A stretch of DNA of 39,701 nt from Gammaproteobacteria bacterium (GCA_013001685.1 JABDMD010000044.1:1-39701), one strand, 5' to 3'. Counted from the first letter of the stretch, positions 11,845 through 33,013 are shown. Notes: a model not told the origin generated them from the sequence alone. Program-made: numbers and translations.

Positions 11845-14226
11845 ATGGGTGTACTAGGTGCAATTCGCGTAGATGGGACGATCGATCAAATCATCACGCA
11901 AGGTTCAGGGTCTGACTATCAGAAGAATCTAGCTAAATTACAAAAAATCGCAAATAAAGCCGTACCTAAGCTTGCAGATCGATTGGATGGAACCAATCAA
12001 GAACAAGCTATAAGTATCATTAAGATCTTATCTGATCTCGCAACAGTTAAAAACGCAGAGTATTTCAAGCCATTATTTTCTCATCAGAGCAATCAAGTGC
12101 GTGATGGTGTTGTTGCAGCATTATCAAAATCATCTGACATAGATCCAAACCGATTTATTGATTTATTTGAAAAACAAAATGCATCTAAACAAATGATAAT
12201 TAGCTTGCTAACTGCACAAAAACAAAAAGTTAACGGAACTAAATTATTGCGTTATGCCTATAAATTAGAACATAACGATCAAGCAGCATTATTTAAATTA
12301 TTAGAAACTATCGCTGGTGACACGATAGTGCCAGAACTTGTGAATAGGGTAGATACCAAAGATCCGATAATCCGCACTTACATTACTAAAGTGTTAGCGA
12401 AATTTGATACTCCTAGCGTAAATGAATCATTAAGTAAACTTTTAACAGATGAAAATAAAGCAGTACGCTTAGCTGCACTCGATGGTTTATCACGTTCAAA
12501 CAAAATTGATGATATTGAGCAACTTTGCAAGCTTATCAGTGACCCTGATTACAAAGTACAAAACAAAGCCATTGAGGTAATCGTCAAAATTAAACACCAC
12601 AAAACTGTCTTGTATTTAATTCCACATCTAAAAGACGAATCTGAATATGTTCGCAGAGCAGCTGTTGAAGTTTTAAATGAAATTGCCAGCAAAGAATCAG
12701 TAAAAGATTTACTCAATGCAATCAAAGATGAAGATTGGTGGGTGCGCAGTCGTGCTGCTGATGCGCTTGGGAAAATAGGCGGTAAACGTGTAGTGCAAGC
12801 AGTGATTCAGCTGATTAAAGATGATGATGAATTTATTCGTCGTTCAGCCATTGAAATTATTAATGCAACCAAAGATGACAGCACCTTTGAAGCTCTAATT
12901 CAATCATTAGATGATTCAGATTGGTGGGTTAGAGAAAGAGCTATTGATGGTCTTGCAGATCTTGGTAATAAGAAATGCGTGCCTATATTAATCAATTTAC
13001 TAAGTAAAAATAGTGATAATGAGGCAATGGTAGTTGTTTTACTAAAAGCGTTTGCAACTTTAAAAGCAGATGAGGCAACAAGCATCACTGTTAAGCAGCT
13101 TAAATCAAAATCTGAAAATGTTATAAAAGAAGCCATAAAGACTTTAATGGTAATTACAGACGAAAATGATGTCGAGGCAGTAGTAAAAGCAATCGATAAG
13201 GTTATTGCAAATCAATCTGAAGAAATTCAAGAGCTAGGTCAAGAAGCTATTAATAGGATTGTTGAGCAAGAGCCTGCTGGTTCTTCTATACAAGTTTTCA
13301 AAGACGCAGATGTAGACATTAGTAAAGACACGATTACGATGTCTGGCAAGATCACACGAGGTGACACTGTAACTGAGTCAAAAATCATCAATCCAGATGA
13401 CATGCAGCCTGATGACATGTTGGCAGATCGCTATCGCTACATAAAGAAAATTGGTAAAGGCGCATTTGGTTCAGTATTTCTAGTTGAAGATACAATTATC
13501 AGTGAAGAAATTATCCTTAAATTCTTAAATGCACAGTTCGTGACAGATGAAAGCATTATAAAACGATTCATATATGAGCTACGTTTTGCGCGTAAGATTA
13601 CTCACCCCAATGTGATTCGTATTTATGACATGTTGTCATTTGGCAAAGCACATGCCATCTCAATGGAATATTTTAGAAGCCATACCTTGAGTGCAGAAGT
13701 AAAAGATAAAAAGCCAATGGATATTGAGCGTGCTATGAGATTTACTTTTGATGTGTGCAGCGGTATGGAAAGCGCTCACGCTGCAAATGTAGTGCATCGT
13801 GACTTAAAGCCTAACAATATATTAATCAACGAAGAAAACATTTTAAAGATTGTTGACTTCGGTGTGGCAGCAGCTACTCAATCTACAGATACCAAGCTTA
13901 CTAAAACAGGGTTGCTGGTAGGAACACCTACTTATATGGCGCCCGAACAAGTATTAGGTAAAGAAGTTGATGAACGCACAGATATATATAGTTTAGGTAC
14001 GATTATGTATGAAATGCTTACAGGAAGACCGCCGTATTCAGGTAAAGATAGTATGTCGATTATGTATCAACACGTGCAAGGTAAGGCACCCAAGGTCTGC
14101 GAGAAAAATGAATTAGTGAGCCAAGAACTTAGTGATGTGGTATCAAAATCGATGAGTGTTAAGGCCGAGCATCGATACCAAAGCATGACAGAACTTAAAG
14201 ACGCAATTCAACATTTAATGGTCTAA
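11845..14226 (+). CDS. HEAT-repeat protein with C-terminal Hanks-type Ser/Thr protein kinase domain
   Basis: N-terminal ~480 aa of HEAT/PBS-lyase-like repeats (e.g. VRRAAVEVLNEI, WWVRSRAADALGKIG, WWVRERAIDGLADLG); kinase: IGKGAFGSVFLVED, HRDLKPNNILI, DFGVAA, GTPTYMAPEQ. Confidence 0.92.
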   Translation: MGVLGAIRVDGTIDQIITQGSGSDYQKNLAKLQKIANKAVPKLADRLDGTNQEQAISIIKILSDLATVKNAEYFKPLFSHQSNQVRDGVVAALSKSSDIDPNRFIDLFEKQNASKQMIISLLTAQKQKVNGTKLLRYAYKLEHNDQAALFKLLETIAGDTIVPELVNRVDTKDPIIRTYITKVLAKFDTPSVNESLSKLLTDENKAVRLAALDGLSRSNKIDDIEQLCKLISDPDYKVQNKAIEVIVKIKHHKTVLYLIPHLKDESEYVRRAAVEVLNEIASKESVKDLLNAIKDEDWWVRSRAADALGKIGGKRVVQAVIQLIKDDDEFIRRSAIEIINATKDDSTFEALIQSLDDSDWWVRERAIDGLADLGNKKCVPILINLLSKNSDNEAMVVVLLKAFATLKADEATSITVKQLKSKSENVIKEAIKTLMVITDENDVEAVVKAIDKVIANQSEEIQELGQEAINRIVEQEPAGSSIQVFKDADVDISKDTITMSGKITRGDTVTESKIINPDDMQPDDMLADRYRYIKKIGKGAFGSVFLVEDTIISEEIILKFLNAQFVTDESIIKRFIYELRFARKITHPNVIRIYDMLSFGKAHAISMEYFRSHTLSAEVKDKKPMDIERAMRFTFDVCSGMESAHAANVVHRDLKPNNILINEENILKIVDFGVAAATQSTDTKLTKTGLLVGTPTYMAPEQVLGKEVDERTDIYSLGTIMYEMLTGRPPYSGKDSMSIMYQHVQGKAPKVCEKNELVSQELSDVVSKSMSVKAEHRYQSMTELKDAIQHLMV

Positions 14227-14251
14227 ATAAAGACAATATAGTAATCCTGTA

Positions 14252-15337
14252 ATGGCGAGAATAGATGCATTTTTAAAACTAGGCCGTGAACAAAGTTGTT
14301 CAGATATTCATATGGCGGTCGGTGTACCTCCAATGTTTAGAATGCATGGTGATTTGGTACCAATTAAATTTAGAGATTTAGGCGATACTGAATTAGAAGG
14401 CTATATGAGTGAGATATTGACAAAATCTCAAAAAGAGAAATTTCGTCAAGGTCATGATTTAGACTTTTCATATATGTCTGAAGGTATTGGCAGGTTCCGT
14501 GTCAACTTATTTAGAAAATCTTCTGGTATAGGTGCAGTCTTTAGACATATTCCAACTGAAATACCTGCTTTCGAAACATTAAAGCTACCCCCGGTAATTA
14601 AAACATTTGCTGAATTTAAGCAGGGCATGGTGCTGGTAACTGGCTCAACAGGTACGGGTAAATCAACCACACTTGCATCGCTAATTCACCATATAAACAA
14701 AACTCGCAAAGAAAATATTATTACACTTGAAGACCCTATTGAATTTATTCACCCAAGTATGAACTCGCAAGTTATTCAGCGAGAAGTAGGCACCCATTTA
14801 AGAAGTTTCGGTGATGGTTTACGCGCTTCATTACGTCAAGATCCTGACATTATACTAGTAGGTGAGATGCGTGACGCAGAAACCATTAGTATGGCAATGC
14901 TTGCTGCTGAAACAGGGCATTTAGTATTTGGTACTTTACACACTACATCCGCAACTAAATCAATTGATCGAATTATTGATGCACTTCCAGCAGAACAACA
15001 AGGGCAAGGTAAAATATTTTTGTCACAAAACTTGCATGCAGTAGTGACTCAAGAGCTCATTAAAACAGTAGATGGAAGAGGGCGTAAAGCCATTGTAGAA
15101 ATCATGATAATGAATAATGCAATATCAAACTTAATTATGTCTGATAAAAACTTCCAAATACCTAATCAAATACAAACAGGTAGTTCAATAGGAATGCAAT
15201 TGAAAGATCAAGCATTGTTAACTGCTGTACAAAATAAAGAAGTAGATCCAGATGATGCTTATTTACATGCTAATGATAAAAAGTCATTTCAACAATATGT
15301 TACTGACCCTGAAATACTACCTACTGCAAATAAATAA
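14252..15337 (+). CDS. PilT/PilU-family type IV pilus retraction ATPase (first paralogue)
   Basis: Walker A GSTGTGKSTT, EDPIEFIH, ASP/HIS boxes GEMRDAETISMAMLAAETGHLVFGTLHTTSA. Confidence 0.92.
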   Translation: MARIDAFLKLGREQSCSDIHMAVGVPPMFRMHGDLVPIKFRDLGDTELEGYMSEILTKSQKEKFRQGHDLDFSYMSEGIGRFRVNLFRKSSGIGAVFRHIPTEIPAFETLKLPPVIKTFAEFKQGMVLVTGSTGTGKSTTLASLIHHINKTRKENIITLEDPIEFIHPSMNSQVIQREVGTHLRSFGDGLRASLRQDPDIILVGEMRDAETISMAMLAAETGHLVFGTLHTTSATKSIDRIIDALPAEQQGQGKIFLSQNLHAVVTQELIKTVDGRGRKAIVEIMIMNNAISNLIMSDKNFQIPNQIQTGSSIGMQLKDQALLTAVQNKEVDPDDAYLHANDKKSFQQYVTDPEILPTANK

Positions 15338-15345
15338 TAAACGTT

Positions 15346-16419
15346 ATGGTTGATATCGACACACTGTTAGAAATGCTGGTTGCACGTGGAGGCTCGGATT
15401 TGCATCTTGTTTCTGGTGATCCAACAAGAATGCGTGTGTTTGGTGATTTAGAAGCAATATCTGAAGATCTTCTTAGCGCAAAAGAATTGCTTGACCCTCT
15501 AATGAATATTATGTCAGTTCGTTCTCGCACAATTTTTGAGAAAGAGGACAACGTAGACTTTGCTCATAGCATCGAAGGTACAGGACGTTTTCGTGTTAAT
15601 GCATTTAGGCATCTCAATGGAGTTGGGGGTGTTTTTCGCTCTATACCTGCTGAAACTGCGTCTCTAGAAGATTTATCTATGCCTGAAATATTGACCAACA
15701 TTAGCAAACAAAAAGCCGGCATGATTCTGGTTACAGGTAAAACAGGCTCAGGAAAATCTACTACTCTTGCTGCAATTGTTAATGAGATTAATACCACTCT
15801 TAAAGGCCATATTCTGACCATTGAAGACCCGGTTGAATTTATTCATGAACAAAAAAACTGTTTATTAAGTCAACGTGAGGTTGGCGAACATGCCAAGTCT
15901 TTTGCAAGTGCACTGCATTCAGCATTGCGTGAAGATCCAGACGTGATTCTTGTCGGCGAGATGCGCGACTTAGAAACCATGAGTCTTGCTGTGACTGCAG
16001 CTGAAACAGGTATATTAGTATTAGGAACATTACATACTAATAGTGCCTCTTCAACTGTCGATCGCATCATCAATGCATTCCCGACTAACAAACAAGATCA
16101 CATTCGTACCATGTTATCTACTTCATTACGATCAGTAATTTCTCAACAATTAATTAAAACTAAAGATGGGAATGGTCGTGCCGCTGCAGTTGAAATTATG
16201 GTTAATACACCAGCCGTTGCAAATATTATTCGTGAAGGCAATACTGATCAAATCGACAACTCTATTCAAGGCGGTCGCAGTTTTGGCATGCAGAGCATGG
16301 ATACTGCAATCAAAAAGCTATTGACTGACGAAAAAATCACTCCAGAAGCAGCTTTTGAAGCAGCTAATGATAAAAGTCAGTTTATGCAATTTCTTAAAAA
16401 AACTGACGAAGCTACCTAA
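15346..16419 (+). CDS. PilT/PilU-family type IV pilus retraction ATPase (second paralogue)
   Basis: Walker A GKTGSGKSTT, EDPVEFIH, GEMRDLETMSLAVTAAETGILVLGTLHTNSA, AxxNIIRE-like motif. Confidence 0.92.
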   Translation: MVDIDTLLEMLVARGGSDLHLVSGDPTRMRVFGDLEAISEDLLSAKELLDPLMNIMSVRSRTIFEKEDNVDFAHSIEGTGRFRVNAFRHLNGVGGVFRSIPAETASLEDLSMPEILTNISKQKAGMILVTGKTGSGKSTTLAAIVNEINTTLKGHILTIEDPVEFIHEQKNCLLSQREVGEHAKSFASALHSALREDPDVILVGEMRDLETMSLAVTAAETGILVLGTLHTNSASSTVDRIINAFPTNKQDHIRTMLSTSLRSVISQQLIKTKDGNGRAAAVEIMVNTPAVANIIREGNTDQIDNSIQGGRSFGMQSMDTAIKKLLTDEKITPEAAFEAANDKSQFMQFLKKTDEAT

Positions 16420-16424
16420 TTATT

Positions 16425-17081
16425 ATGTACAAATGGGCAAGTATTTTGGTTGGTATATTACTTTGCTCAACAATGGTTCATGCAACTGATCAAGAAATCT
16501 CACATATTGAAGTGATGGCTTTATTTAAAAATAAAGCCATGGTGAGTATTAATGATAAACAGCATCTGTTAAAAGTAGGTGAGCCAGCAACGATAGGCGT
16601 AAAATTAATTGAAGCCAGTAGTAAATATGCTGTATTAGAAGTTAATGGAGAGCGATCAAAATATAATCTAGGTAATCGCGTACGTGCAAGTTACTCGAAA
16701 TCTGAAAAAAAGAAAGTGCAGATTTATCGTAATGGTAACAATATGTTTAGGACGGTTGGCTCTATAAATGGCTATCCTGTTGATTTTCTTGTAGATACTG
16801 GTGCAAGTTCAGTGGCACTAAATTCTGCATTAGCCAAACGGCTTGGGCTACAATATAAACTTAAAGGAGAGGAGACCGTTGTATCTACTGCATCAGGTAA
16901 GGCATTGGCGTATTCTATTTCTTTGGATCAAGTGAAGGTTGGCGAGATCATGTTAAGAAATATAGATGCCGTTATAATTGAAGGAAACGACCCATCCACG
17001 CCGCTATTAGGCATGTCCTATCTTGGGCGCCTTAAACTAAATAATGAAAATCAGTATTTAGAGTTAGAAGAAAAATATTAA
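16425..17081 (+). CDS. exported retropepsin-like aspartic protease with N-terminal small beta (PilP/GspC-like) domain
   Basis: Signal peptide (MYKWASILVGILLCSTMVHA); VDFLVDTGASSVALNS active-site motif and LLGMSYLGRLKL C-terminal motif of the TIGR02281-type family; N-terminal segment VMALFKNKAMVSINDKQHLLKVGE…VKLIEASSKYAVLEVNGERSKYNLG. Confidence 0.85.
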   Translation: MYKWASILVGILLCSTMVHATDQEISHIEVMALFKNKAMVSINDKQHLLKVGEPATIGVKLIEASSKYAVLEVNGERSKYNLGNRVRASYSKSEKKKVQIYRNGNNMFRTVGSINGYPVDFLVDTGASSVALNSALAKRLGLQYKLKGEETVVSTASGKALAYSISLDQVKVGEIMLRNIDAVIIEGNDPSTPLLGMSYLGRLKLNNENQYLELEEKY

Positions 17082-17090
17082 AATTAGAAT

Positions 17091-17984
17091 ATGGCTAAAG
17101 ATAGTAAAGACGTCACGGTAATGTTTGTTGATATAGCGGGTAGCACCCGTTTATACCAAGAATATGGCGATACCTTAGCGCAAGATAGTATTGCTCGCTG
17201 TTTGATACGCATGTCGGAAATCATTAAACGGCATAAAGGCACTGTAGTGAAATTCATAGGAGATGAAATTCTATGCTATATGACCGATCCAGAACTAGCT
17301 TTCCAAGCCGCTTTTAAGCTTCAGGAAACTGCTAAAGAAACTGTTGACCCAAATGGTGTGCGATTAGCTTTGCGCATTGGGATGCATTACGGCTCTGCAA
17401 TTGTTGAAGCTACTGATATGTTTGGTGATTCGGTAAATGTCACCGCTGCTATGCGAGATATCGCGAAAGGCGGGCAAATAATCGCTACTGATGCCATCGT
17501 CAAACATATACCACCAGAAATTGCACATTTCACTCGTCGTTATGACACCTCGCGTATAAAAGGTCGTCAAGAACAAACTATTATTTATGAAGTGATGTGG
17601 GAAGGCGAAGCTTCAACCCAGATTCTTTCTGGTACGACTTCATTAGAAAATATGAAGGCGTCAAAACTACAACTTTCTTTTCAAGACAGTGAAATAGCAC
17701 TACTTGCAAACATGCCTGCATTAACGATTGGTCGTGATTTGAACTGTGGCATCGTTGTTGAAGGTAATCTGGTTTCTAGGCAACATGCAATTATTGAATA
17801 TCGACGAGGTAAATTTTTAATTAGAGATCAAAGTACTAATGGTACTTATGTTCTTACCGAAGATGGTCGCAGTATATACCTTCGTAGAGAAGAATTTCCG
17901 TTATGGGGAGAAGGTAAAATAAGTTTAGGTAAAACCATTCTTGATGATAACGACCCTGATCTTATTCATTTCAATTCGCTTTAA
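17091..17984 (+). CDS. class III adenylate/guanylate cyclase domain fused to a C-terminal FHA domain
   Basis: VTVMFVDIAGSTRLYQEYGD and VVKFIGDEILCYM cyclase motifs; FHA motif TIGRDLNCGIVVEGNLVSRQHAIIEYRRGKFLIRDQSTNGTYV. Confidence 0.93.
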   Translation: MAKDSKDVTVMFVDIAGSTRLYQEYGDTLAQDSIARCLIRMSEIIKRHKGTVVKFIGDEILCYMTDPELAFQAAFKLQETAKETVDPNGVRLALRIGMHYGSAIVEATDMFGDSVNVTAAMRDIAKGGQIIATDAIVKHIPPEIAHFTRRYDTSRIKGRQEQTIIYEVMWEGEASTQILSGTTSLENMKASKLQLSFQDSEIALLANMPALTIGRDLNCGIVVEGNLVSRQHAIIEYRRGKFLIRDQSTNGTYVLTEDGRSIYLRREEFPLWGEGKISLGKTILDDNDPDLIHFNSL

Positions 17985-19859: not shown

Positions 19860-20600
19860 TTAGATGCCTAGTTGTCCTTGATGAACTAGTTTTACACTAT
19901 CTTCAGTGATTTTCTTACCGATCATCTGCACAGTCTGTAAAACGTTATCTGGAGTGCGTGCATTCTTTGATAAGGTCAAATCTGCATTATAAGCGCCACC
20001 ATTAGCTACATAAATGATTCCATCCAAATCCAATTCACCATTTTGGTTATGTAGATTGATTTGAAATCCATCATCTTGCGGGGAAAATTCACTGCTAATA
20101 TCACCCAAATTTAAAGGTACGAAGCCTAAGATACTAGTATTAGACGTTTTTAAAATGCCGTCTGCATAATGTGGAATACCATTTTTGATATGTAAGTTAT
20201 CAAACTTTGCATCAAATTGACCATTTATAGTTAATCCATAACGCTCAAAGTAAGGGCCTAGAAGGGAAAGTTCACCATTGAGATCGATATCTTTTGTATG
20301 TACATCTGATCCTGAGTAAGTAGTTTTAAAATCACCTTTTATATTACTCGAGTCTATAGAAACGTCTGCTTGAACTTTCCCGATAAGCAGACTAAGAGGC
20401 TTAGCTGTCCATTTAGTGTTTTGTAAACCAATCTTGTCAATAATAACATTCTGTACGTTGCCATTTAATAAAGTACCGCTTAAACCTGCGGCAGAAATAT
20501 TACTAGGTAAGAACTTCTCAATTATAGAAGCAGGTGCAAAATAGGCGATAGCACCTACAAAAATTACCAAACCTAAAAAAAGTTTTATGATTATCTTCAT
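19860..20600 (-). CDS. gspN: type II secretion system protein N
   Basis: Last gene of the gsp cluster; N-terminal TM; ISAAGLSGTLLNGNVQNV… beta-rich GspN-like sequence. Confidence 0.8.
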   Translation of the reverse strand: MKIIIKLFLGLVIFVGAIAYFAPASIIEKFLPSNISAAGLSGTLLNGNVQNVIIDKIGLQNTKWTAKPLSLLIGKVQADVSIDSSNIKGDFKTTYSGSDVHTKDIDLNGELSLLGPYFERYGLTINGQFDAKFDNLHIKNGIPHYADGILKTSNTSILGFVPLNLGDISSEFSPQDDGFQINLHNQNGELDLDGIIYVANGGAYNADLTLSKNARTPDNVLQTVQMIGKKITEDSVKLVHQGQLGI

Positions 20601-20607
20601 ACCATAT

Positions 20608-21093
20608 TTATCTAGTTAAAGTAACTTTACCAGTAATTTTGCCTATCTGGTCTGAACGATTAAAAGATGCATCCGCCACTTCAATGTTATTTCTTCTCTC
20701 TAACTCACCTAGAAGCACAATCAGGTAATCAAATGCCATATCTTCTACATAAATATGAACACTATCTTCACCTTTGGGCTCAATTCTAGTGATGGCAGGG
20801 CGTATACCCATCTGTTTGGCACCAGTATCTACTATTGCTAACAAGGAGCGGCTATCGCTAGCACTATTAAACATATTAGGATTAATACGCTTCAAGTGTT
20901 CTACTTCTTGTTTTTTCTGGGTCATCCACGTAACCGTTTCGCGCTTTGCCTCAACACGTTTTTGTTTTATATCACGGCTGGATGCAATTGGAGACCAAAT
21001 AGCTAGATATAGTATTGCAATTGATACCAATACCGTAGCGATAAGCACCATATAACGCTCACGTGATTGAAGAGTTTCCCACCAATCTTTCAT
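20608..21093 (-). CDS. gspM: type II secretion system protein M
   Basis: WWETLQSRERYMVLIATVLVSIAILYLAIWSPI N-terminal TM and ferredoxin-like C-terminus; gsp cluster position. Confidence 0.9.
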   Translation of the reverse strand: MKDWWETLQSRERYMVLIATVLVSIAILYLAIWSPIASSRDIKQKRVEAKRETVTWMTQKKQEVEHLKRINPNMFNSASDSRSLLAIVDTGAKQMGIRPAITRIEPKGEDSVHIYVEDMAFDYLIVLLGELERRNNIEVADASFNRSDQIGKITGKVTLTR

Positions 21094-22343
21094 TTGATGT
21101 CTCCTTTAGCAATAACAAGTTTTGCTTCAACAGTATTGCCCTGCGTATTGGCTGATTGAATATCTGCCGAATAATTCTTACTTTTTAAAGTTTGCTTGAT
21201 GCTATCGAGTATTTGCACATCAGCAGATTTTACATTCATATTTAATTTACCTTCTCGATAATTCATAGTGTCGATATCTACTTTTCCAGCTTGTTTCATC
21301 GATTCACCACTCAAAGCAAGTAATTCCATAAAACCTGCTTTGGAGTTTGCACTGGTTGTGTCCATAAAGTTCTTTAAACGTGCTTCCATCTTGGTACGTG
21401 CACTATCTGCAGATACATTCAGCATATCCGGAAAGGTCTGCTTCATAATTTGGACTATTTGAGCATCTAATACCTTTTCTTGTTTGCTAAGACGAGAATG
21501 ATCGATAAAGACGGATAAAAACGAAAGCGCTATCCAAGCTCCAAACAACATTGCTGCCACTTTCCATGGACCAACTTGACGGTGTTTTTTATCCTTATTC
21601 TTATAAGTTGTTTGCAGCAGATTAATACATTCATTTTCATCTAAGCCATCTGCAAATAAACCAGGAGGGCAATCATCTAATTCATTTGTGCTAATTGGTA
21701 AGTTAAGTTTTTTAATGCCAGTTTGTTGATCATCACAGCAATAAACGTTTAGCTCTGCAGGAGCTTCTTCTGCTTGCCGTAAAGAAGAAGTAAGCATTTG
21801 TTGAAGGTTGTGTAAATCAATCGTGAAACCTTGGTATCTTGCAGTACGAACTAAAGCACGATCATTTTCAATTAATATTGTCCATGTGCCGTCTCTAAAT
21901 GGTAAACCAAAAACATCTGCAGTTAATAAATCAGGATATATACCTGCTTCAGAAAGTGCATCTAGAACCATATCTAAAGTGCTTTTATTTATTACTGCTA
22001 CAGGAAAATCATTTTCGCCATATCGTTGTCCTAAGGCGAAATGTAAGCTATCGACATCATCTGCAAGTTCATCTTCCAAAGCGAAGGGTACTGCTTTCTG
22101 CAAATGTTTTTGTTTACGCGCTCTTGTGTTCACGCTGGTAAGTAACATCTGCTCAAGCGGCAGTAATACAATTACGTTTGCATTTTGAGTAACAGAAGAC
22201 ACTTGTTCCAAACGCGCCTCAGCACCTCTAGTGATAGGAACACCTTCTTCGTCTAACTTAATCCACTTAACAAAATGAGAATCTTCAATATCAAGATTTT
22301 GAAGTAATTCACTTTGTATATATATGATTACGGTTTCTTCCAT
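21090..22343 (-). CDS. gspL: type II secretion system protein L
   Basis: Actin-like cytoplasmic domain (LPLEQMLLT, KAVPFALEDELADDVDSLHFALG), TM WKVAAMLFGAWIALSF, overlaps gspM. Confidence 0.92.
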   Translation of the reverse strand: MEETVIIYIQSELLQNLDIEDSHFVKWIKLDEEGVPITRGAEARLEQVSSVTQNANVIVLLPLEQMLLTSVNTRARKQKHLQKAVPFALEDELADDVDSLHFALGQRYGENDFPVAVINKSTLDMVLDALSEAGIYPDLLTADVFGLPFRDGTWTILIENDRALVRTARYQGFTIDLHNLQQMLTSSLRQAEEAPAELNVYCCDDQQTGIKKLNLPISTNELDDCPPGLFADGLDENECINLLQTTYKNKDKKHRQVGPWKVAAMLFGAWIALSFLSVFIDHSRLSKQEKVLDAQIVQIMKQTFPDMLNVSADSARTKMEARLKNFMDTTSANSKAGFMELLALSGESMKQAGKVDIDTMNYREGKLNMNVKSADVQILDSIKQTLKSKNYSADIQSANTQGNTVEAKLVIAKGDIK

Positions 22344-22368
22344 ATCGTTCTCTTTTCCGGTTCTCTAT

Positions 22369-23322
22369 TTAGAGTTTCTGACTGCGTTTAATTATTTGTA
22401 GGTTATTGCCAGCACCACGATGAATCAGACTGACCATTTTTACTTGGCTTTTGCCAATCACACATTTTGTATTTAGTAAAAAATGATCACTTTTTATCCC
22501 AAGCTTATCTGTATCTAAAGTTATACCATTTTGCTGTATTAATGGATGTCTTTGTAAGTCCCCAACTTGTTTATAAGGTTTGTCTTCACGTTCTGCAACT
22601 AATTCTTGTCCAAGTCCTGGTCTAATATTAGGGGCTAAAGTTTCTAAAACTTCAGCAGATGCAGTATTTATATTTAATGACGAATTAGCATCAGACAATA
22701 CTGTGACATGAGGGATTAACTTATTATATATTTCTTGATCTATACCATGCACAAGTCTGAGTTCAGAAATATCCTTCATAGGTTGATCTGCGGGCAAATA
22801 AGGTGTTTCTAAACCTATATAAATATCAAATTCTGCTCCATCCGAGCCAGTAGGATTAGGATTAGCGTCAATCCAATCAATTATTGCACCTACTAAACCT
22901 TTGTTAATTTCTAGTGTAGTAAATAACCTCTCAAATCGAAGTTGCGCAATTGGATTTGGCTTATTACCCTCTAGTAGAGAGTTAATATTTAATTTCCCTT
23001 GTGCATCTTCTAAGCTGCCTTCAATAAAGCCATCAGGAAGAGGGAACACTAGTGGAGCACCATTGTTCCACCAAGCATTATCTGTATCATAAGCATCATA
23101 GGTATTATCTTTTTGATCCCTAGCTAGAATTGCTTTTGCCCATTGTTCTGCACCTTTTGCATATGACCATGCTTGACCGCTATCAAAAGCAGTGATGGTG
23201 CGACGAAAATTTAATTCATAATTTTCAGCAATTGAGATCGAAGCAACCACAGCAAGAGAAACGATTAATACCGCTGTAATTAAGGCAACTCCAGATTGCT
23301 TATTTTTAGATTGAAAACTCAT
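22369..23322 (-). CDS. gspK: type II secretion system minor pseudopilin K
   Basis: SGVALITAVLIVSLAVVASISI prepilin-like N-terminus; DAQGKLNINSLL; DWIDAN; LNINTASAEVLETLAP. Confidence 0.95.
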   Translation of the reverse strand: MSFQSKNKQSGVALITAVLIVSLAVVASISIAENYELNFRRTITAFDSGQAWSYAKGAEQWAKAILARDQKDNTYDAYDTDNAWWNNGAPLVFPLPDGFIEGSLEDAQGKLNINSLLEGNKPNPIAQLRFERLFTTLEINKGLVGAIIDWIDANPNPTGSDGAEFDIYIGLETPYLPADQPMKDISELRLVHGIDQEIYNKLIPHVTVLSDANSSLNINTASAEVLETLAPNIRPGLGQELVAEREDKPYKQVGDLQRHPLIQQNGITLDTDKLGIKSDHFLLNTKCVIGKSQVKMVSLIHRGAGNNLQIIKRSQKL

Positions 23323-23333
23323 TTCAGCATCAT

Positions 23334-23969
23334 CTATGTAATTTCAGGAGCTGCAAACACACGTTTAATTTCTTCCATATTTTCTACTTTGATAGTCAGC
23401 TCTAATGCACGCGGTATATTAAATTGCTGAACAGAACCAATTTGTGGTGCAGAACTACTGTTTAGAGGTGGCCAGGTAGTTTGCCATTGATTCGCTTGAT
23501 CAAGGTAACGAAGTTTTATTGATTCAACACCTTCGAGCAGATCAGTTTCAAAAAATTCTTCAGCAATTGCACCATCCAACTGTCCCCAGGTATAACGCTT
23601 TAACGTGTTTTCATCCAACTCATAAGAAACACGTTGCATTTTACTGCGTACTAAATTAGCCGGATTACGCCAGCCTGAATGGGTAAAACTAAAGGCTTTG
23701 TCCTCATCTCCAACGAAGGATGGTTGTAGATCTTGATACTGATTGCGAACAGAGCGATTAATCATTTGATTAATATCTTTTTCAAAATACCGGAAAGTAA
23801 GTTGCATATCTCTAAGCTGATCAGATGAGCTTTGTAAGTAATTTTGTCCTTTTAAGACATAATTAATTCCGCCGTATGCCATGATAGAAACGATACTAAA
23901 GATAAATATCGCAATCATCATTTCAATTAATGTAAATCCAAATGAATTATTTATTCTATATAACTTCAT
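23334..23969 (-). CDS. gspJ: type II secretion system minor pseudopilin J
   Basis: FGFTLIEMMIAIFIFSIVSIMAYGGI prepilin motif; GspJ-like body (RDMQLTFRYFEKDINQ…RSVR). Confidence 0.93.
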   Translation of the reverse strand: MKLYRINNSFGFTLIEMMIAIFIFSIVSIMAYGGINYVLKGQNYLQSSSDQLRDMQLTFRYFEKDINQMINRSVRNQYQDLQPSFVGDEDKAFSFTHSGWRNPANLVRSKMQRVSYELDENTLKRYTWGQLDGAIAEEFFETDLLEGVESIKLRYLDQANQWQTTWPPLNSSSAPQIGSVQQFNIPRALELTIKVENMEEIKRVFAAPEIT

Positions 23970-23977
23970 TAGTTACA

Positions 23978-24373
23978 TTACCTAGGATTGAAAAACAGTG
24001 TGATTAACGTTGCATAATTTTGTGCAGATTTATCTTTATCTTTTCGCACAGTAATTTCTATACGATTTGTATCAGGATCTTCTGTGCCTTCAATTTTTCT
24101 CGTCCAATGCCAGGTCAGACCTGCTAATTTTTCTTCGCCGTCCGTAAACCCTGTTTTCGGACTCGCTGCAGTAACCTCAATCTCTGCTAGTTGATTCTGT
24201 GCCACCCAATACGCAAAGGTTTTATCTCTTAAGTAAATGGTATTAGATGTTGTGGTAGTAACCGTTTTGATCACCGCTGCCATACCCAGAGCAATAACGG
24301 CAAGAGCCACCATAACTTCTAGAAGTGTAAAACCGCTAACAGATTTAGTATTCATGTTAATTGATCGCGTCAA
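23978..24373 (-). CDS. gspI: type II secretion system minor pseudopilin I
   Basis: SGFTLLEVMVALAVIALGMAAVIK; YWVAQNQLAEIE. Confidence 0.93.
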   Translation of the reverse strand: MTRSINMNTKSVSGFTLLEVMVALAVIALGMAAVIKTVTTTTSNTIYLRDKTFAYWVAQNQLAEIEVTAASPKTGFTDGEEKLAGLTWHWTRKIEGTEDPDTNRIEITVRKDKDKSAQNYATLITLFFNPR

Positions 24374-24920
24374 TTTCGTACTTTCCGTTCTCTGCCATTA
24401 TCATCTTAAAGGTATGATCAGCTTTATCCGTGAGCTTAAGTTCAAATGGACTAATTGAGCCATCAGAAAGAATAAAGACATGTGGAGTTATTTCTTTTAA
24501 TTTAGAAGCAGCAAACGTTACTTGAATACCCTCAAGAAAAAGTTCATATTCCAAGCTATCAGGCAGAGTACGTTTAGTTAATATTCTGTCATCTTCAATA
24601 GGCTGCCAAATAGTAACTTCCTCTTTTTTCTTATTAACAGCTGAACCCATTTTATAAAAAGAGTAACTGTCTTTTGTAAATAGCAAACCTAACTCTTGTG
24701 AATTAAATATGGCTTGCTCTTTAGCTAAATCAATTAATGCGCCTAACTGTTGTGACTTATGCGACATACGCTCAGCTTGATTATCACCGAAGGCTAATGT
24801 TGCAAATGACACTGCGATGCCAATAATCACAATGACGACAAGCAGCTCTAATAGAGAAAATCCTGAATTACAGTTTCTCGCAGAACTATGCCTAGCAAAT
24901 TTGTGTGAGTAGAAAATCAT
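24357..24920 (-). CDS. gspH: type II secretion system minor pseudopilin H
   Basis: SGFSLLELLVVIVIIGIAVSFATLAF; QLGALIDLAKEQAIFNSQELGL; overlaps gspI by 17 nt. Confidence 0.92.
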   Translation of the reverse strand: MIFYSHKFARHSSARNCNSGFSLLELLVVIVIIGIAVSFATLAFGDNQAERMSHKSQQLGALIDLAKEQAIFNSQELGLLFTKDSYSFYKMGSAVNKKKEEVTIWQPIEDDRILTKRTLPDSLEYELFLEGIQVTFAASKLKEITPHVFILSDGSISPFELKLTDKADHTFKMIMAENGKYEIDAIN

Positions 24921-24955
24921 TTAATATTAACTAAGCGCTAAGTTGTATTGTTCTA

Positions 24956-25408
24956 CTATCTTAAATCTGCAGTAGACAAATCTTTATTATTCTCTTCACC
25001 ACCCAGTTTTCCATCAGCACCAAATGTGAATAAATCGAATTCATTACCACTGGCACCAGGGTAAGCATATTGATATTCACTACCCCATGGATCCAAAGGC
25101 AATCTTGGTATGTATCCACCTTTTCTCCAGTTTTTAGGTTCAGGGCTGCCACTTGGCTTGGTTACCAAAGCCTGTATTCCTTGATCGGTGCTAGGGTAGT
25201 TAAAATTATCTAATCGGTAGAGGTTCAGTGCAGATTCCAAAGCACGAAGGTCGCTTAGGGATTTTTTAATGCGTGCTTCTTCTACTTGTCCAAAAATATT
25301 AGGCGCTATTACAGCTGCCAACAATCCAATAATGACTACCACCACAATAATCTCAATCAAGGTAAAACCTTGCATGCGATGGATTTTGGTTCTTTTAAAG
25401 TTATTCAT
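24956..25408 (-). CDS. gspG: type II secretion system major pseudopilin G
   Basis: QGFTLIEIIVVVVIIGLLAAVIAPNIFGQVEEARIKK…LYRLDNFNYPSTDQGIQALV…DPWGSEYQY. Internal ATG at 25408 (MNNFKRTKIHRMQGFTLIE) preferred over the track start at 25456. Confidence 0.95.
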   Translation of the reverse strand: MNNFKRTKIHRMQGFTLIEIIVVVVIIGLLAAVIAPNIFGQVEEARIKKSLSDLRALESALNLYRLDNFNYPSTDQGIQALVTKPSGSPEPKNWRKGGYIPRLPLDPWGSEYQYAYPGASGNEFDLFTFGADGKLGGEENNKDLSTADLR

Positions 25409-25537
25409 ATATGTAATTACTCTCTGATTTATTAACTTGCTGATTATCAAGGGCAAATGTGTCCAAATTGTAACAAGAACTAAGCTATCTGCTATTTAGT
25501 TATGTTAATTACTGGTCTCACTCAACGGATAGCTGGT

Positions 25538-25566
25538 ATTGCACTCTGCATTAGTATTTAAGTCAA
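25538..25566 (-). promoter_or_regulatory. candidate promoter in the gspF-gspG gap driving gspG onward
   Basis: Minus-strand TTGACT (25566-25561), 17-nt spacer, TGCAAT (25543-25538, 4/6 match to TATAAT), upstream of gspG in the only large gap of the gsp cluster. Confidence 0.3.
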
Positions 25567-25632
25567 TAAAATAACCATTAATTACATATAGTTAGAAGTA
25601 TTAATTAAAGTTATACAACTTTAGTGCGTCCA

Positions 25633-26850
25633 TTATTGTCCAACCAGCTGGTTCAAGTTAAAGATAGGCATCAGAACGGCCATAACGATACCTAACACCA
25701 TGACACCCATGAACACGATGATCAGGGGTTCAAGCAGTTTAAGGGTAGTGTTAATGACAGTATTTAGTTCCCGTTCTTGTTGAGATGCTGCTCGGTCTAA
25801 CATTTCTTCCAAATTACCACTTTGTTCACCACTAGCAATTAGGTGCAAGGTCATAGGCGGGAAGTGCCCTGAACGCTCTAATGATGAATGGATAGTCGCA
25901 CCTTCACTAATACTCACGGCAGCTTCTTGTACGGCTTGACGCATTGGTCGATTCATAATTACTTCGGCTGCTATACGTAATGAATCTAGTACAGGAACGC
26001 CTGATGCAGTCATTATGCTTAATGTTCGTGAAAATCGAGCTGTGTTCACACCGCGAGTTAATTTTCCAACAATAGGCATACGAAGATAAAACTGTTGCAC
26101 TTTTGCTCTAAAGGTTTCGGTACGCATTGCACGTTGAAACAAAATTATCCCAATGATGGCGGCAATTAAAATATATATGCCATAGGAAACTAAAAAGTTG
26201 CTAAAAGAAATGAGCATTTGCGTTAGCAATGGTAATTCTTGCCCCAAATCTTCAAATATTCCAACTACTTTTGGAACTACTACGACTACTAACAACACTA
26301 CAACTGCTAATGCAATAAATAATAAAGCAATTGGATATACAAGGGCACCTACAACACTTTGTTGAGTTTCTTGTTTAGTCTCAGTGTAATCTGCAAGTCG
26401 ATCAAGTACTGCATCAAGGTAACCGGATTTTTCACCTGCTGCAATAGTTGCGCGATACATTTCAGGATAGTCAGAAGGGAATTCGCCCATGGCTTTCTCT
26501 AATGAGTAACCTTCAGAGACACGTGATCGTACACCCATGACAGTACGTTTTACGCGTGGTTTTTCTGTGTGATTCCCAATCGTACGCAAGGCCTCCTCTA
26601 GAGGTGTGCCTGAACGAACAAGTGTAGCTAGTTGACGAGTAAATAAAGCTAAATCAGTTGAATTAAATCGACGTGCGAATAAGCCCTTAAAGGACGTTTT
26701 ATCTTTGCGCTCTCTAACTTGATTTATTGCAAGAGGATCAAAACCTTTGGAACGCAAATGTTGTCGCGCAGCACGCGGACTATCGCCTTCTATAACGCCG
26801 CGTTTTTCGCGACCGGCAGTGTCTAATGCAGTATATTCAAAAGCAGGCAT
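25633..26850 (-). CDS. gspF: type II secretion system inner membrane protein F
   Basis: MPAFEYTALDTAGREKRGVIEGDSPRAARQHLR; ASGEQSGNLEEMLDRAA. Confidence 0.97.
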   Translation of the reverse strand: MPAFEYTALDTAGREKRGVIEGDSPRAARQHLRSKGFDPLAINQVRERKDKTSFKGLFARRFNSTDLALFTRQLATLVRSGTPLEEALRTIGNHTEKPRVKRTVMGVRSRVSEGYSLEKAMGEFPSDYPEMYRATIAAGEKSGYLDAVLDRLADYTETKQETQQSVVGALVYPIALLFIALAVVVLLVVVVVPKVVGIFEDLGQELPLLTQMLISFSNFLVSYGIYILIAAIIGIILFQRAMRTETFRAKVQQFYLRMPIVGKLTRGVNTARFSRTLSIMTASGVPVLDSLRIAAEVIMNRPMRQAVQEAAVSISEGATIHSSLERSGHFPPMTLHLIASGEQSGNLEEMLDRAASQQERELNTVINTTLKLLEPLIIVFMGVMVLGIVMAVLMPIFNLNQLVGQ

Positions 26851-26865
26851 AGTTTAGCTCGAGGT

Positions 26866-28398
26866 TTAGTATTCAACATCTTCTTTAGTCACACGCATGA
26901 CTTCTTCAAGTGTAGTTACTCCCTCAAGCACTAGGCGAATACCATCCTGTCGAATACTAGCCGTGTGTTGGTGTGCGTATTTTTCTAATTCTTGTTCTGC
27001 ACCAATATCGTGAATCATGCCACGCATGGTTTCATCAATCGTTACAAGTTCGTAAATACCTGTTCTACCTGAATACCCTGTGTTATTACATGCGCTACAA
27101 GATCCAGGAGAATAAATGTTAGGTGGCTCAGTTAATTCTTTACCAATTTGCACATTTTTTATTTGATCAAATTCGACAGAACTTGCAGTGTGGGCAACCC
27201 TGCATTCATTACAAAGTACTCTTACCAAACGTTGTGCAAGTACTGCTACTAAACTTGAAGATAATAAAAATGGTTCAACACCCATATCACGCATACGTGT
27301 AATTGCACCCACAGCAGTATTAGTATGCAGAGTAGAGAACACCATGTGACCAGTTAAACTGGCTTGCACTGCAATAGAGGCGGTTTCTAAATCACGTATC
27401 TCACCAACCATCACCACATCAGGGTCTTGTCGCAAAATTGCACGTAAACCACGTGCAAAAGTCATATCAACTTTACTGTTAACTTGAGTTTGGCCAATGC
27501 CATCAATGAAATATTCAATAGGATCTTCAACGGTAAGAATATTACGTTTCTTATCGTTAATTTCACTTAATGCTGCATATAAGGTTGTAGTTTTACCAGA
27601 ACCAGTAGGGCCAGTTACCAAAACAATGCCGTGAGGTTTCTCAATAGCTTGTTTAATCTTGTTATGCAGGTCTCTTTGTAAACCTAAGTGTTCTAAATCG
27701 AGTCGGCCCGCTTGTTTATCTAACAAACGCAATACCACGCGCTCACCATGACCAGAAGGTAAGGTAGATACGCGCACATCAACTGGGCGACCTGCAACGC
27801 GTAAAGAAATACGTCCATCTTGCGGTAAACGTTTTTCGGCAATGTCTAATGCTGCCATTACTTTAATACGAGACACGACCAATGTACCTAGGTTACGTGG
27901 TGGTTGTAATACCTCACGTAACACACCATCGACACGCATGCGAACAGATAACCTAGATTCAAATGTTTCAATATGAATATCAGAGGCACCTTCTTTAACT
28001 GCTTGAGTAAGTAAAGCATTAATCAAACGAATAATTGGAGCGTCATCATCAGCATCCATTAAGTCTTGTGGTTCGGGTAAGGCTTCTGCAAGGCTGGCTA
28101 AATCAAGATCGTCTTCAAAACCTTCCATTAACGCTAACGTACCGGTAGCACTATCGTCATAAAGTTGAGTTAACAACTCATCGAATTCATCTTCAGATAG
28201 AGTGCGAATATTTAATGGCTTACCCACAAAACGACGCGCTTCGGCAAGTGAAGGGGGTTTTACATCCGGGCGCTGAAAAATCATCACACGGCCATTAATT
28301 TCATTACCAATTAAAATACCGTGACGTTTAGCAAAACTAAACGGCGGCCTGCGAATTTCGCGCGGCGCTAAGGATGGTTGAGCCTTTTCTGTTTCCAT
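26866..28398 (-). CDS. gspE: type II secretion ATPase E
   Basis: Walker A GPTGSGKTTTLY, EDPIEYFIDGIGQTQVN, GEIRDLETASIAVQASLTGHMVFSTLHTN, zinc site CNEC…CSACNNTGYSGRTGIYE. Confidence 0.97.
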   Translation of the reverse strand: METEKAQPSLAPREIRRPPFSFAKRHGILIGNEINGRVMIFQRPDVKPPSLAEARRFVGKPLNIRTLSEDEFDELLTQLYDDSATGTLALMEGFEDDLDLASLAEALPEPQDLMDADDDAPIIRLINALLTQAVKEGASDIHIETFESRLSVRMRVDGVLREVLQPPRNLGTLVVSRIKVMAALDIAEKRLPQDGRISLRVAGRPVDVRVSTLPSGHGERVVLRLLDKQAGRLDLEHLGLQRDLHNKIKQAIEKPHGIVLVTGPTGSGKTTTLYAALSEINDKKRNILTVEDPIEYFIDGIGQTQVNSKVDMTFARGLRAILRQDPDVVMVGEIRDLETASIAVQASLTGHMVFSTLHTNTAVGAITRMRDMGVEPFLLSSSLVAVLAQRLVRVLCNECRVAHTASSVEFDQIKNVQIGKELTEPPNIYSPGSCSACNNTGYSGRTGIYELVTIDETMRGMIHDIGAEQELEKYAHQHTASIRQDGIRLVLEGVTTLEEVMRVTKEDVEY

Positions 28399-28431
28399 TA
28401 GAAAGTCATTTGATAGTTATCAATCTTGGCG

Positions 28432-30597
28432 TTATTCAAGAATGATTACGTCAGAATCGGTTGGTATAGATATATTCTCAGTTTGAATTTCATCAACTGG
28501 AATATCATTTACTTGTATGTCACCAAGCTCTTCAATCGCAGTAGTTTCAATACCAGGTGATTGCTGCAGCAATTGATCCACTGAAACAGGGGAGGTTGAT
28601 GTCACAGCTCCACCAGGCAATTGTGTCACAAGTTCGTCAAGATCGGGTAACCGTCGTGCACCGTTTTTAATTAATCCGCGATCATCAATCTCAGCTTCAA
28701 TTTGTCTGGCTTTCATGAAACTGTATTTAGCGTTAGTAGCATATGTGCTTGTAGCAGCATCGCGAACAATAACTGGGTGTATAAACACCATTAAGTTCTG
28801 TTTATCTTTTCTAGTTGAAGTAGATTTAAACAAATTACCCAATAATGGAATATCGCCAAGCAATGGTACTTTCTGTACATCGTCCGTGAATTCATCTTCA
28901 ATTAATCCACCCATTACGATGGTTTGCTGATCTTTTGCTAATACAGTTGTAACTATGGAGCGTTTATTTGTGATTAAATCACTTGCTACTGGTGATGGGG
29001 AGAGGGAAGAAGATTCTGTCTCAACGGCTAATATAACACTATCCCCCTCATTAATTTGTGGTGTAATTCTTAGTGTTATACCTACATCTTCGCGTTCAAT
29101 GGTCTGAAATGGGTTCACAGCAGAATCGGTACCAGATCCCGTATTTGTAAATTGGCCGGTAATAAAGGGTACGTTTTGTGCGACTACAATTTCGGCTTCT
29201 TCATTGTCTAACGTCATTAGTTGAGGTGTTGACAAGATGTTGGTTGCTGAATCACCCTCAAGTGCTCGTAATAGAGCAGCGAAACGATCTTTTCCACTCA
29301 ATTTTGCTGCGCCAACAAAAAATCCACTGGTTACAGCAGTAAGTGCAGCGTCAGAACCACCTGCTATTAGTCCCGCAATATTAGCCTGCGAATTTGTAAA
29401 TAATTCGCCAACCGCAGGCGTGGTTCCTGAAGAACGTTCAGTAGGTACATAGGCAAATTGCACGCCCAACTCTCTAGAAAGACCCGTAGAGACTTCAGCA
29501 ATAATTGCCTCTACCAAAACTTGTGCTCGGCGAATATCCAATTGGCTAATGATTCGCCGAATGCTTTCAAATTTTGCAGGCGCTGCAGTGATGATTAAAG
29601 CATTGGTAGTTTCATCTGCTTGGATATCTACATCCTGCAAATTTGCACCCGTTGCTGTGCCACTAGCATTACCTTGTTGGCCTTCTGCTTCAAATTGTGT
29701 AACACCCAGCAGAATCGGGGCTAATTCTGCAGCTTTTGCATATTTCAAAAATACAACTTGTGAATTTCCACCACCTTGTAAAGGTGTATCAAGGTGAGCG
29801 ATTAGTCCTCGAATTCTTAAACGTGCGGCATTATCACCGGATAACAAAATACTGTTGGAACGTTCATCTGCAGCGAGCGTTGTGCCACCAGGAACTTGCC
29901 CTTGTGCATCTTGACGACTCATAGAATTAATAATTCTTACTACTTCAGCTGCAGAAGCATGCTCCAATGGCACGACCTCAATTTCTTGGCTATCCGGTCG
30001 GTCAATACGGTTAATAATAGAAATCAACCTTTGAATATTTGCAGCACGATCAGATATAACTAAAACATTACTATTAGGGTAGGCTGCAAGATGTCCTTGT
30101 TGTGGTACGAGAGGACGCAAGATTGGAACCATTTGTGCAGCAGGTACGTTTTTAATCGGAATTACACGAGTAACTAGTTCGTCACCAGTTGATTTGATGC
30201 TTCCGTTACCAGTAACAACCGGACCTTGTTTAGCATTTACATCCGGTAAGATTTTAATAATTTCACCAACTTGCACTGCTGCATATCCATGCACTTGCAA
30301 AACGGATAGGAATACTTGATATACCTCCTCGCGATTCATTGAACGTGCTGAAACAACGGTAACTTTTGCTTTCACACGAGGGTCAACTACAAAATTACGT
30401 TCGGTAGCTTCTGCTACCGTTTCAATAAAGGAACGGATATCTGCATCTTTTAGATTTAATGTCACACCAGTTTCTGCAGATACAACGTTAAAGGTAAATG
30501 CAACAGTAAAAGTAAAAAGCACTGCATAAGCGCAAAAAGCTTTAAAAATTTGATTCAAGTTAAACTTATTATTCATATAGTTATATGGCTTAAACAA
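28432..30597 (-). CDS. gspD: type II secretion secretin D
   Basis: 721 aa; N0 domain LNLKDADIRSFIETVAEATERNFVVDP, repeated N1-N3 domains, secretin core VPLLGDIPLLGNLFKS…LMVFIHPVIV. Confidence 0.97.
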   Translation of the reverse strand: MFKPYNYMNNKFNLNQIFKAFCAYAVLFTFTVAFTFNVVSAETGVTLNLKDADIRSFIETVAEATERNFVVDPRVKAKVTVVSARSMNREEVYQVFLSVLQVHGYAAVQVGEIIKILPDVNAKQGPVVTGNGSIKSTGDELVTRVIPIKNVPAAQMVPILRPLVPQQGHLAAYPNSNVLVISDRAANIQRLISIINRIDRPDSQEIEVVPLEHASAAEVVRIINSMSRQDAQGQVPGGTTLAADERSNSILLSGDNAARLRIRGLIAHLDTPLQGGGNSQVVFLKYAKAAELAPILLGVTQFEAEGQQGNASGTATGANLQDVDIQADETTNALIITAAPAKFESIRRIISQLDIRRAQVLVEAIIAEVSTGLSRELGVQFAYVPTERSSGTTPAVGELFTNSQANIAGLIAGGSDAALTAVTSGFFVGAAKLSGKDRFAALLRALEGDSATNILSTPQLMTLDNEEAEIVVAQNVPFITGQFTNTGSGTDSAVNPFQTIEREDVGITLRITPQINEGDSVILAVETESSSLSPSPVASDLITNKRSIVTTVLAKDQQTIVMGGLIEDEFTDDVQKVPLLGDIPLLGNLFKSTSTRKDKQNLMVFIHPVIVRDAATSTYATNAKYSFMKARQIEAEIDDRGLIKNGARRLPDLDELVTQLPGGAVTSTSPVSVDQLLQQSPGIETTAIEELGDIQVNDIPVDEIQTENISIPTDSDVIILE

Positions 30598-30741
30598 TGT
30601 AATTATTGTGTTTATTCAGCTTATCAAGAATATCGCAATACCGCATAGAATATGCTTGATGTTTATACACTAATTCCTTATCTGCTGGATGAGATACAAA
30701 CTCTGTGTTGTTTATTCCTTGATCAACGGCCATATTGCTAC

Positions 30742-31659
30742 CTATTGGCTCATATCCTGCAATAAAGTGATTTCTGTACCTTCACGCATTACTACCATCT
30801 TTACTTCGGTAGCCGTTGACAGGGCTTGCATGGCTTCTGGCCCCTTATTTGGGGCATCCAATAAAATATCGTTGATGTTAATCACAACATCGCCTGGCTG
30901 TAAGCCAAGTTGATAAAACATATCTGAATTATTGCTAGGCGTTAGTTTGTAACCTATAAATTTGCCGTCTTCATTATTCTCTGGGGCTGCATTAATAAAC
31001 TCTGTCAGACGCACAGGATTCTTCATGATCTCTTGGCGAAATTGACCAATTGTTTCAAAATTCGTTTCCGCACCAGAAGCATTAGTTTGTTGCGGCGTAG
31101 TAGCTGCTTTAGTGGTATTTACAGGTTTCTTTTGATTAAACCCTTTGGCATTAGCTCTTGGTAAACGTAAGGTTTCCATACGTATATCACGTTCTAAAAT
31201 AACTCGGTCAGAGAAGACAGCATGTAAAGTTGCACCACCTGGTACGTCATCCCCAAGTGCGTAATGCTTAATTTTATTACCGCCACTGGAAATGATTGCA
31301 TAGCCATAATCCTTGCCTCCCGCAAGCACACCTAATAGCTTCAAGTTAAGGGTAGTTTCAGGAGCGTTCTCAACTTGTTTTGTAGTAGAGGCGGGGGCTG
31401 GTTTACCCATTAGGTGTAATTGAGCAATCTTACGGTCGTGATTTACTCTTGGCTGTGGTTTCACATTGGTAGTAGCTGCTGTGGTAGGGATGGTAATCAC
31501 TTTATTTGATCCACTATCAAAAAATCCCACAATAACTTTTGCCAAGGTAATTAAGATAAGAATAGCTAATGCAATGCTAACCCAGCGGGGTAGCTTCATT
31601 TCTATTTTCGGCCATAGGTTGTTTAGTGCTGCAGCGTCCAAACTTGTTAATAAATTCAT
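30742..31659 (-). CDS. gspC: type II secretion system protein C (PDZ-containing)
   Basis: N-terminal TM, HR domain LNLKLLGVLAGGKDYGYAIISSGG…HYALGD, C-terminal PDZ GYKLTPSNNSDMFYQLGLQPGDVVININDI. Confidence 0.93.
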   Translation of the reverse strand: MNLLTSLDAAALNNLWPKIEMKLPRWVSIALAILILITLAKVIVGFFDSGSNKVITIPTTAATTNVKPQPRVNHDRKIAQLHLMGKPAPASTTKQVENAPETTLNLKLLGVLAGGKDYGYAIISSGGNKIKHYALGDDVPGGATLHAVFSDRVILERDIRMETLRLPRANAKGFNQKKPVNTTKAATTPQQTNASGAETNFETIGQFRQEIMKNPVRLTEFINAAPENNEDGKFIGYKLTPSNNSDMFYQLGLQPGDVVININDILLDAPNKGPEAMQALSTATEVKMVVMREGTEITLLQDMSQ

Positions 31660-32407: not shown

Positions 32408-33013
32408 ATGCAAGAGACACTTGATATTCAAAATCTAGATCAAGAAACGTTAAACAAATGGTTTGACAAAAGACTTGAACAAAAACTAAAAGAACGCGAA
32501 GAGGCGAGAACTCCGCAATTATCTCTAATTGCCACCAAAGGCACTATGGATATGGCTTATCCACCATTTATACTAGCGTCAACTGCTGCAGCGCTGGGCT
32601 GGGAGGTATCCTGTTTCTTTACCTTTTATGGTTTAAATCTACTGAAGAAGGATCTCGATCTAGAAATCTCTCCTCTCGGTAATCCTGCTATGCCGATGAA
32701 AATGCCATTTGGACCTGATTGGTTTAAAAGTGTGGAATGGAACATTCCAAATGCATTAAGCAGCAATATTCCTGGCTTTGAAAAATTTGCTACCTCAATG
32801 ATGTCAAAAACACTCAAGAATAAAGGTGTTGCAAGTATACAAGAATTGCGAGAATTATCTGTTGAAGCGGATGTGAAACTTGTCGCTTGTCAAATGACGG
32901 TAGATTTATTTGGTTACAAGAAAGACGAATTTATTGATGATATCTCAGACTGGGTCGGAGCAGCCTCATTTTTACCTAACGCTCAACAATCCGATATCTG
33001 CTTGTTCATTTGA
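32408..33013 (+). CDS. DsrE2-like DsrE/DsrF/DrsH-family sulfur relay protein
   Basis: KLKEREEARTPQLSLIATKGTMDMAYPPFILASTAAALGWEVSCFFTFYGLNLLKK…VKLVACQMTVDLFGYKKDEFIDDI; conserved Cys in the (V/A)CQMT motif. Confidence 0.85.
   Translation: MQETLDIQNLDQETLNKWFDKRLEQKLKEREEARTPQLSLIATKGTMDMAYPPFILASTAAALGWEVSCFFTFYGLNLLKKDLDLEISPLGNPAMPMKMPFGPDWFKSVEWNIPNALSSNIPGFEKFATSMMSKTLKNKGVASIQELRELSVEADVKLVACQMTVDLFGYKKDEFIDDISDWVGAASFLPNAQQSDICLFI

Follow-up and report, generated by a model that had tools for sequence, protein, structure and literature searches.

The window, a stretch of 39,701 nucleotides of DNA from a gammaproteobacterium (JABDMD010000044.1), contains five co-directional genes encoding a HEAT-repeat kinase (HEATK), two PilT-family ATPases (PilTa and PilTb), an aspartic protease (AspP) and a cyclase-homology protein with an FHA domain (CycFHA). 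Their positions and key properties are summarized in Table 1. The open reading frames are separated by 25, 8, 5 and 9 nucleotides, in that order. All five lie where an initial annotation, made from the sequence alone, had placed them, and Pfam and NCBIfam profiles agree with its domain assignments. All loci of the window's family at which the genes were found show the same order of five genes, followed by gltX, as do two further families (f126 and f62). The arrangement is therefore not the result of chance. Sites resembling promoters or terminators are no more frequent in the region than in shuffled sequences, and the scan is compatible with a single transcript without proving one. Comparison of loci divides the operon into two layers, i.e. 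an old core of HEATK, PilTa and PilTb, and a variable accessory layer.

Table 1. Features of the window, with positions counted from its first nucleotide.
Feature	Position	Strand	Properties
HEATK, HEAT-repeat Ser/Thr kinase	11845-14226	+	793 aa; HEAT array ~200-400, Hanks kinase domain 530-781
PilTa, dedicated PilT-family ATPase	14252-15337	+	361 aa; TIGR01420, 420.0 bits
PilTb, second dedicated PilT-family ATPase	15346-16419	+	357 aa; TIGR01420, 437.5 bits
AspP, predicted exported retropepsin-like aspartic protease	16425-17081	+	TIGR02281, 3.1e-32, above cut-off
CycFHA, class III cyclase-homology domain (1-165) and FHA domain (208-260)	17091-17984	+	Guanylate_cyc 1.2e-17, FHA 2.9e-13; Thr176 in linker
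Type II secretion cluster, gspN to gspC	19860-31659	-	directly after gltX
Flavocytochrome c sulfide dehydrogenase and DsrE-like genes	34148-35425 and 32408-33013

HEATK matches the Pfam profiles HEAT_2 (2.3e-49) and Pkinase (3.6e-53). It has the motifs of a Hanks-type Ser/Thr kinase, comprising GKGAFG537, the Lys in EIILKFL555, HRDLKPNN651, VDFG670 and APEQ699, and these are kept across 48 orthologs. It is therefore classed as a Hanks-type kinase by its motifs, with putative Ser/Thr kinase activity. The sequence LTKTG is located in its activation loop. There is no transmembrane stretch, hydropathy over 19 residues peaking at 1.3. Across the orthologs the HEAT segment between residues 241 and 360 has a mean conservation of 0.67-0.72, compared with 0.54-0.73 for the kinase domain. 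Conservation of the HEAT segment to the same extent as the kinase domain suggests that HEATK has a fixed partner, and the proteins encoded by the next two genes, PilTa and PilTb, are the obvious candidates to bind there.

We searched for the HEATK protein in 369 genomes sampled from across the class. A strong ortholog was found in 48 of these, mostly full length and with 38-57% identity, and neighborhoods of up to 20 kb were mapped around the orthologs and their close relatives. HEATK, PilTa and PilTb follow one another on the same strand in 45 of the 49 loci that have more than 2.6 kb of downstream sequence, in 24 families. The initial annotation had asked whether the gene order extends beyond close relatives, and for these three genes it clearly does. 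Four loci depart from the core order. At L104 the gene is shortened, and at L067 PilTa lies on another contig. The remaining two, L093 and L105 (genomes G171 and G281, family f154), contain distant HEAT-kinase paralogs with about 30% identity, which lack PilT genes and share a common but different context.

PilTa orthologs, accepted at E ≤ 1e-105, were found in 46 of the 369 genomes, and HEATK is present in all 46. PilTa is thus present in 46 of the 48 HEATK genomes, and the two that contain only the kinase are 72% and 78% complete. The hypergeometric probability for this co-occurrence is p ~1e-56, uncorrected for kinship. The two genes co-occur even where they lie on different contigs (G180 and G382). 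Distances between HEATK sequences correlate with those of PilTa and PilTb with values of 0.78 and 0.77, against 0.35 for canonical PilT (13 genomes). PilM, which marks the presence of type IVa pili, was matched in 43 of the 48 HEATK genomes compared with 231 of the 321 without HEATK (Fisher p 0.008). Among 399 genomes drawn from the whole phylum, a set in which species-rich lineages are probably overrepresented, there was no carrier besides the window's genome; the module seems to be limited to part of the class.

In the window's lineage the operon is embedded in a stable series of housekeeping genes, rib-nusB-thiL-pgpA ... gltX, as might be the case for co-directional neighbors that have no functional link. 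Yet elsewhere the three core genes are found together in unrelated contexts, and co-occur on separate contigs as noted above, so that this explanation is scarcely credible. In other lineages they are found with genes for methionyl-tRNA synthetase, an aminotransferase, PP2C or GAF-HD proteins. The spread over 24 families, in surroundings that change, makes passive shared ancestry an unlikely explanation. We also consider it highly improbable that the module serves the pseudopilus of the type II secretion system encoded next door. The gsp genes come after gltX in the window's genus and at L048, but at the other core loci no gsp gene is within reach, and these include L047 and L090 of the same family. 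As the gsp neighborhood is not conserved, we rejected type II secretion as the target of the module. A role as a defense system was likewise set aside, the PADLOC matches having the appearance of generic kinase and cyclase homology.

Both ATPases exceed the curated TIGR01420 cut-off of 319.1 bits, and so belong to the PilT/PilU family of type IVa pilus ATPases. The Walker A and Walker B motifs and the catalytic Glu are retained in both clades. The His box is intact in PilTa, while in PilTb the first His is replaced by Ile (TGILVLGTLHT). PilT of the Pseudomonas aeruginosa type is the best structural relative (3jvu, 2.5e-91). We placed 129 PilT-family sequences in a FastTree phylogeny, in which PilTa and PilTb form clades of 47 and 45 sequences (support 100 and 99 respectively) apart from the canonical PilT clade (14 sequences, support 100) and a PilU-type clade (23 sequences, support 100), with a warning from the program that long branches separate the canonical clades. 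Neither protein clusters with the PilT that is linked to yggS/proC in these genomes, nor with the PilU located downstream of that PilT.

Further PilT-family genes are present elsewhere in all 14 carrier genomes checked. In the window's genome pilT, pilU and a third PilT-family gene stand in a row beside yggS-proC (L099:7718-11355, contig C55), which is the classical pilT-pilU site, and this cluster of three recurs in most of the 14. Given the separate clades, and the presence of canonical PilT and PilU elsewhere in the same genomes, we conclude that PilTa and PilTb are dedicated paralogs. The initial annotation was thus correct as to the family of its two PilT-like ATPases, but they are not PilT and PilU proper. 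They share family membership and ATPase motifs with the PilT, PilU and PilT-2 proteins of type IVa pili, but differ from them in forming two clades of their own, in fixed partnership with a kinase.

The role of PilTa and PilTb might be that of adaptors rather than independent motors. They would then form hexamers, or mixed assemblies with PilT/PilU, that act as the target platform of the kinase and tune retraction force in the manner of PilU and PilT-2. The existence of distinct clades beside the canonical pilT-pilU is consistent with this, as is the loss of one His from the His box of PilTb. Moreover, PilU depends on PilT, and PilT-2 modulates speed (PMC6762196). However, Walker A, the catalytic Glu and most of the motor motifs are retained in both clades, and ATPase activity has therefore probably been selected. 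We regard the adaptor role as a tentative possibility.

The accessory layer differs between lineages. A local FHA protein was found in 24 of 38 well-covered loci, with one of three architectures: tandem-FHA, cyclase-FHA or FHA-GAF-HD. Depending on the lineage, the gene 3' of PilTb encodes a tandem-FHA protein of ~222 amino acids (15/38) or a cyclase-FHA protein (9/38), or there is no FHA gene. At L053 the CycFHA gene is convergent to the core and was counted as local. Genes for FHA-GAF-HD proteins and PP2C phosphatases are divergent and upstream in some loci, and PP2C adjoins the module in 9 of the 42 loci with enough upstream sequence. In CycFHA the FHA residues G214, R215, S229, H232 and N250 are all present and invariant in the alignment, and binding of phosphothreonine is predicted. 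A near-invariant YEPTMF(I/V/L)(K/R)AE follows FHA1 of the tandem-FHA proteins, and T176, just before the FHA domain, is nearly invariant among CycFHA proteins. The Thr of EPTMF and T176 are thus conserved candidates for phosphorylation. The unit of kinase, FHA protein and PilT-type ATPases proposed in the initial annotation does exist, and its conservation reaches well past close relatives. This comparative genomics gives good support to a circuit of kinase and FHA protein built around PilT ATPases.

A family of 155 amino acids is encoded 5' of HEATK in 29 of the 42 loci with enough upstream sequence (for example L082:5950-6417 and L048:6812-7261), and is absent from the window's family. Its match to DUF6812 is weak. 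An AlphaFold model (pLDDT 91) has two small beta barrels, judged by strand pattern. Assignment as PilZ or another known fold was rejected, as the confident model has no significant match in the PDB.

The cyclase domain of CycFHA was examined in terms of the established residue roles of class III cyclases. The metal-binding D14 and D58 are invariant in 18 aligned sequences, and the adenine pair K54/D109 and the transition-state N116 are present. The window and every aligned member of its own family, however, have Ala120 in place of the transition-state Arg at N+4, whereas this Arg is retained in several relatives outside that family, such as the one at L053, and in Ma1120. The nearest Arg is at position 122, and might compensate for the loss. 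Replacement of the N+4 Arg makes the cyclic nucleotide output of the window's CycFHA doubtful, and with it the suggestion that this cyclase changes such output.

This bears on the complete circuit first proposed for the locus, in which phosphorylation read by the FHA domain toggles the cyclase, the level of cyclic AMP (cAMP) shifts, and pilus activity is determined by regulators that depend on cAMP. The control of pilus activity by cAMP through CyaB and Vfr in Pseudomonas provides a model for such a scheme. Retention of both metal Asp residues, of the adenine-type Lys54 and Asp109, and of Asn116 would allow it, and the window's genome encodes five cyclic nucleotide-binding proteins, one of them fused to a Ser/Thr kinase. 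Yet in addition to the loss of the Arg, most core loci have no cyclase, so that cAMP cannot be the general output. We consider this circuit unlikely. Nor is the cyclase a core component, since in most lineages either a tandem-FHA protein takes its place or an FHA gene is missing from the locus.

The same is true of the protease. AspP has its catalytic D124 in a DTGA sequence, and an N-terminal hydrophobic stretch that resembles a signal peptide. An AlphaFold 2 model (pLDDT 84) matches the Rickettsia retropepsin 5c9f (E 7e-11). AspP has a small N-terminal beta domain (residues 27-87) in which a GspC homology-region domain or a PilP domain was at first suggested by eye. Both were rejected by profile comparison, with a probability of 0.8% against the window's GspC, and no support from PDB sequences, and of 0.1% against ten PilP sequences. 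AspP is confined to three families, among them that of the window, and is a lineage-specific periplasmic add-on or passenger. Of the five-part circuit in the initial annotation there remains the core of HEATK, PilTa and PilTb together with an exchangeable FHA protein, while cyclase and protease fall away as core parts.

We conclude, with a probability of about 0.55, that the five genes are one lineage's form of a conserved gammaproteobacterial phospho-module controlling the dynamics of type IV pili through PilTa and PilTb. Soluble HEATK would dock via its conserved HEAT surface on PilTa and PilTb, or on the complex that they form with the pilus platform, and phosphorylate itself and/or a partner on threonine. 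The phosphothreonine would be read by the FHA protein, i.e. tandem-FHA in most lineages and cyclase-FHA in that of the window, and where PP2C phosphatase is present it would reset the phospho-state. This state would decide whether PilTa and PilTb engage, assist or antagonize the canonical PilT/PilU motor. A more general formulation is of an ancient post-translational control of type IV pili, comprising a HEAT-scaffold kinase, two private PilT motors and interchangeable FHA modules (tandem-FHA, cyclase-FHA and possibly FHA-GAF-HD). We judge the chances of this to be evenly balanced.

Some observations weigh against control of pili by such a module. There is no recognized FHA gene nearby in 14 of the 38 well-covered loci; most of the tested genomes without a local FHA protein have a distant tandem-FHA relative elsewhere, but G338 does not. 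Five of the 48 HEATK genomes have no PilM match. Having lost one histidine from its His box, PilTb may be unable to act as a motor by itself. Finally, the weaker correlation of HEATK with canonical PilT may result from the low variability of the latter and the small number of genomes.

The window's genome contains other genes of related kinds. A kinase, a PP2C phosphatase and an FHA protein are encoded in a row on contig C145 (L155:2406-5619), forming a second complete trio. On contig C49 two FHA proteins adjoin near an Hsp90 gene, with no kinase near (L106:7231-8789). Another Ser/Thr kinase, encoded beside a Mur ligase gene on contig C7 (L100:6639-7946), has a cyclic nucleotide-binding domain at its C-terminus, and is possibly a bacterial cAMP-responsive kinase. 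The flavocytochrome c sulfide dehydrogenase and DsrE-like genes in the window suggest that the organism is probably a sulfur oxidizer.

Several known systems resemble the module in part. The PpkA-PppA-Fha1 pathway of type VI secretion also has a Hanks kinase, a PP2C phosphatase (here in some loci), an FHA reader and an envelope machine, and according to PMC3953482 phosphothreonine of TssL is read by Fha in Agrobacterium. Here, by contrast, a soluble kinase bears a HEAT array, the machine parts coupled to it are PilT-family ATPases, and there are no type VI secretion genes near. The TagH/VI_FHA model scores 35.5 bits against a cut-off of 120, and the neighbors in the window are housekeeping or type II secretion genes. 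In the actinobacterial GarA/OdhI switch a Thr motif likewise lies beside an FHA domain, and the FHA region of CycFHA matches OdhI (2kb3, E 5.5e-5). However, the candidate Thr lies after FHA1 in the tandem-FHA proteins, and before the FHA domain at another offset in CycFHA, the setting is not metabolic, and phosphorylation here is putative. The Ser/Thr kinase SpkA of Synechocystis is needed for pili and motility, reportedly acting on pilA expression (cited in PMC6213207), but that review mentions no HEAT array or PilT operon for it. In Sulfolobus the FHA protein ArnA and the kinases ArnC and ArnD control the archaellum, a type IV-pilus-like filament (PMC5300886); as described there, this archaeal network acts on archaellum expression and not on PilT-type motors.

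We did not find the arrangement described in the searchable literature, which leaves out most subscription papers, and this is not proof of absence. The review of bacterial Hanks kinases does not mention PilT (PMC6213207), and the paper on PilU reports extra PilT paralogs but no phosphorylation (PMC6762196). A phospho-switch controlling pili, with HEATK beside two dedicated PilT ATPases, is apparently undescribed. Kinase-FHA signaling is of a known kind, and what would be new is that it is coupled to the motors of type IV pili.

Additional PilT-family proteins and second messengers are known to adjust how type IV pili retract. The loci described here have FHA modules exchanged around a fixed core of kinase, PilTa and PilTb. 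If our interpretation is correct, pilus motors would in addition be under direct phospho-control by a kinase tied to its own PilT pair. This would account for the presence of five or more PilT-family genes in many carrier genomes, and would give the HEATK kinase family a testable function.

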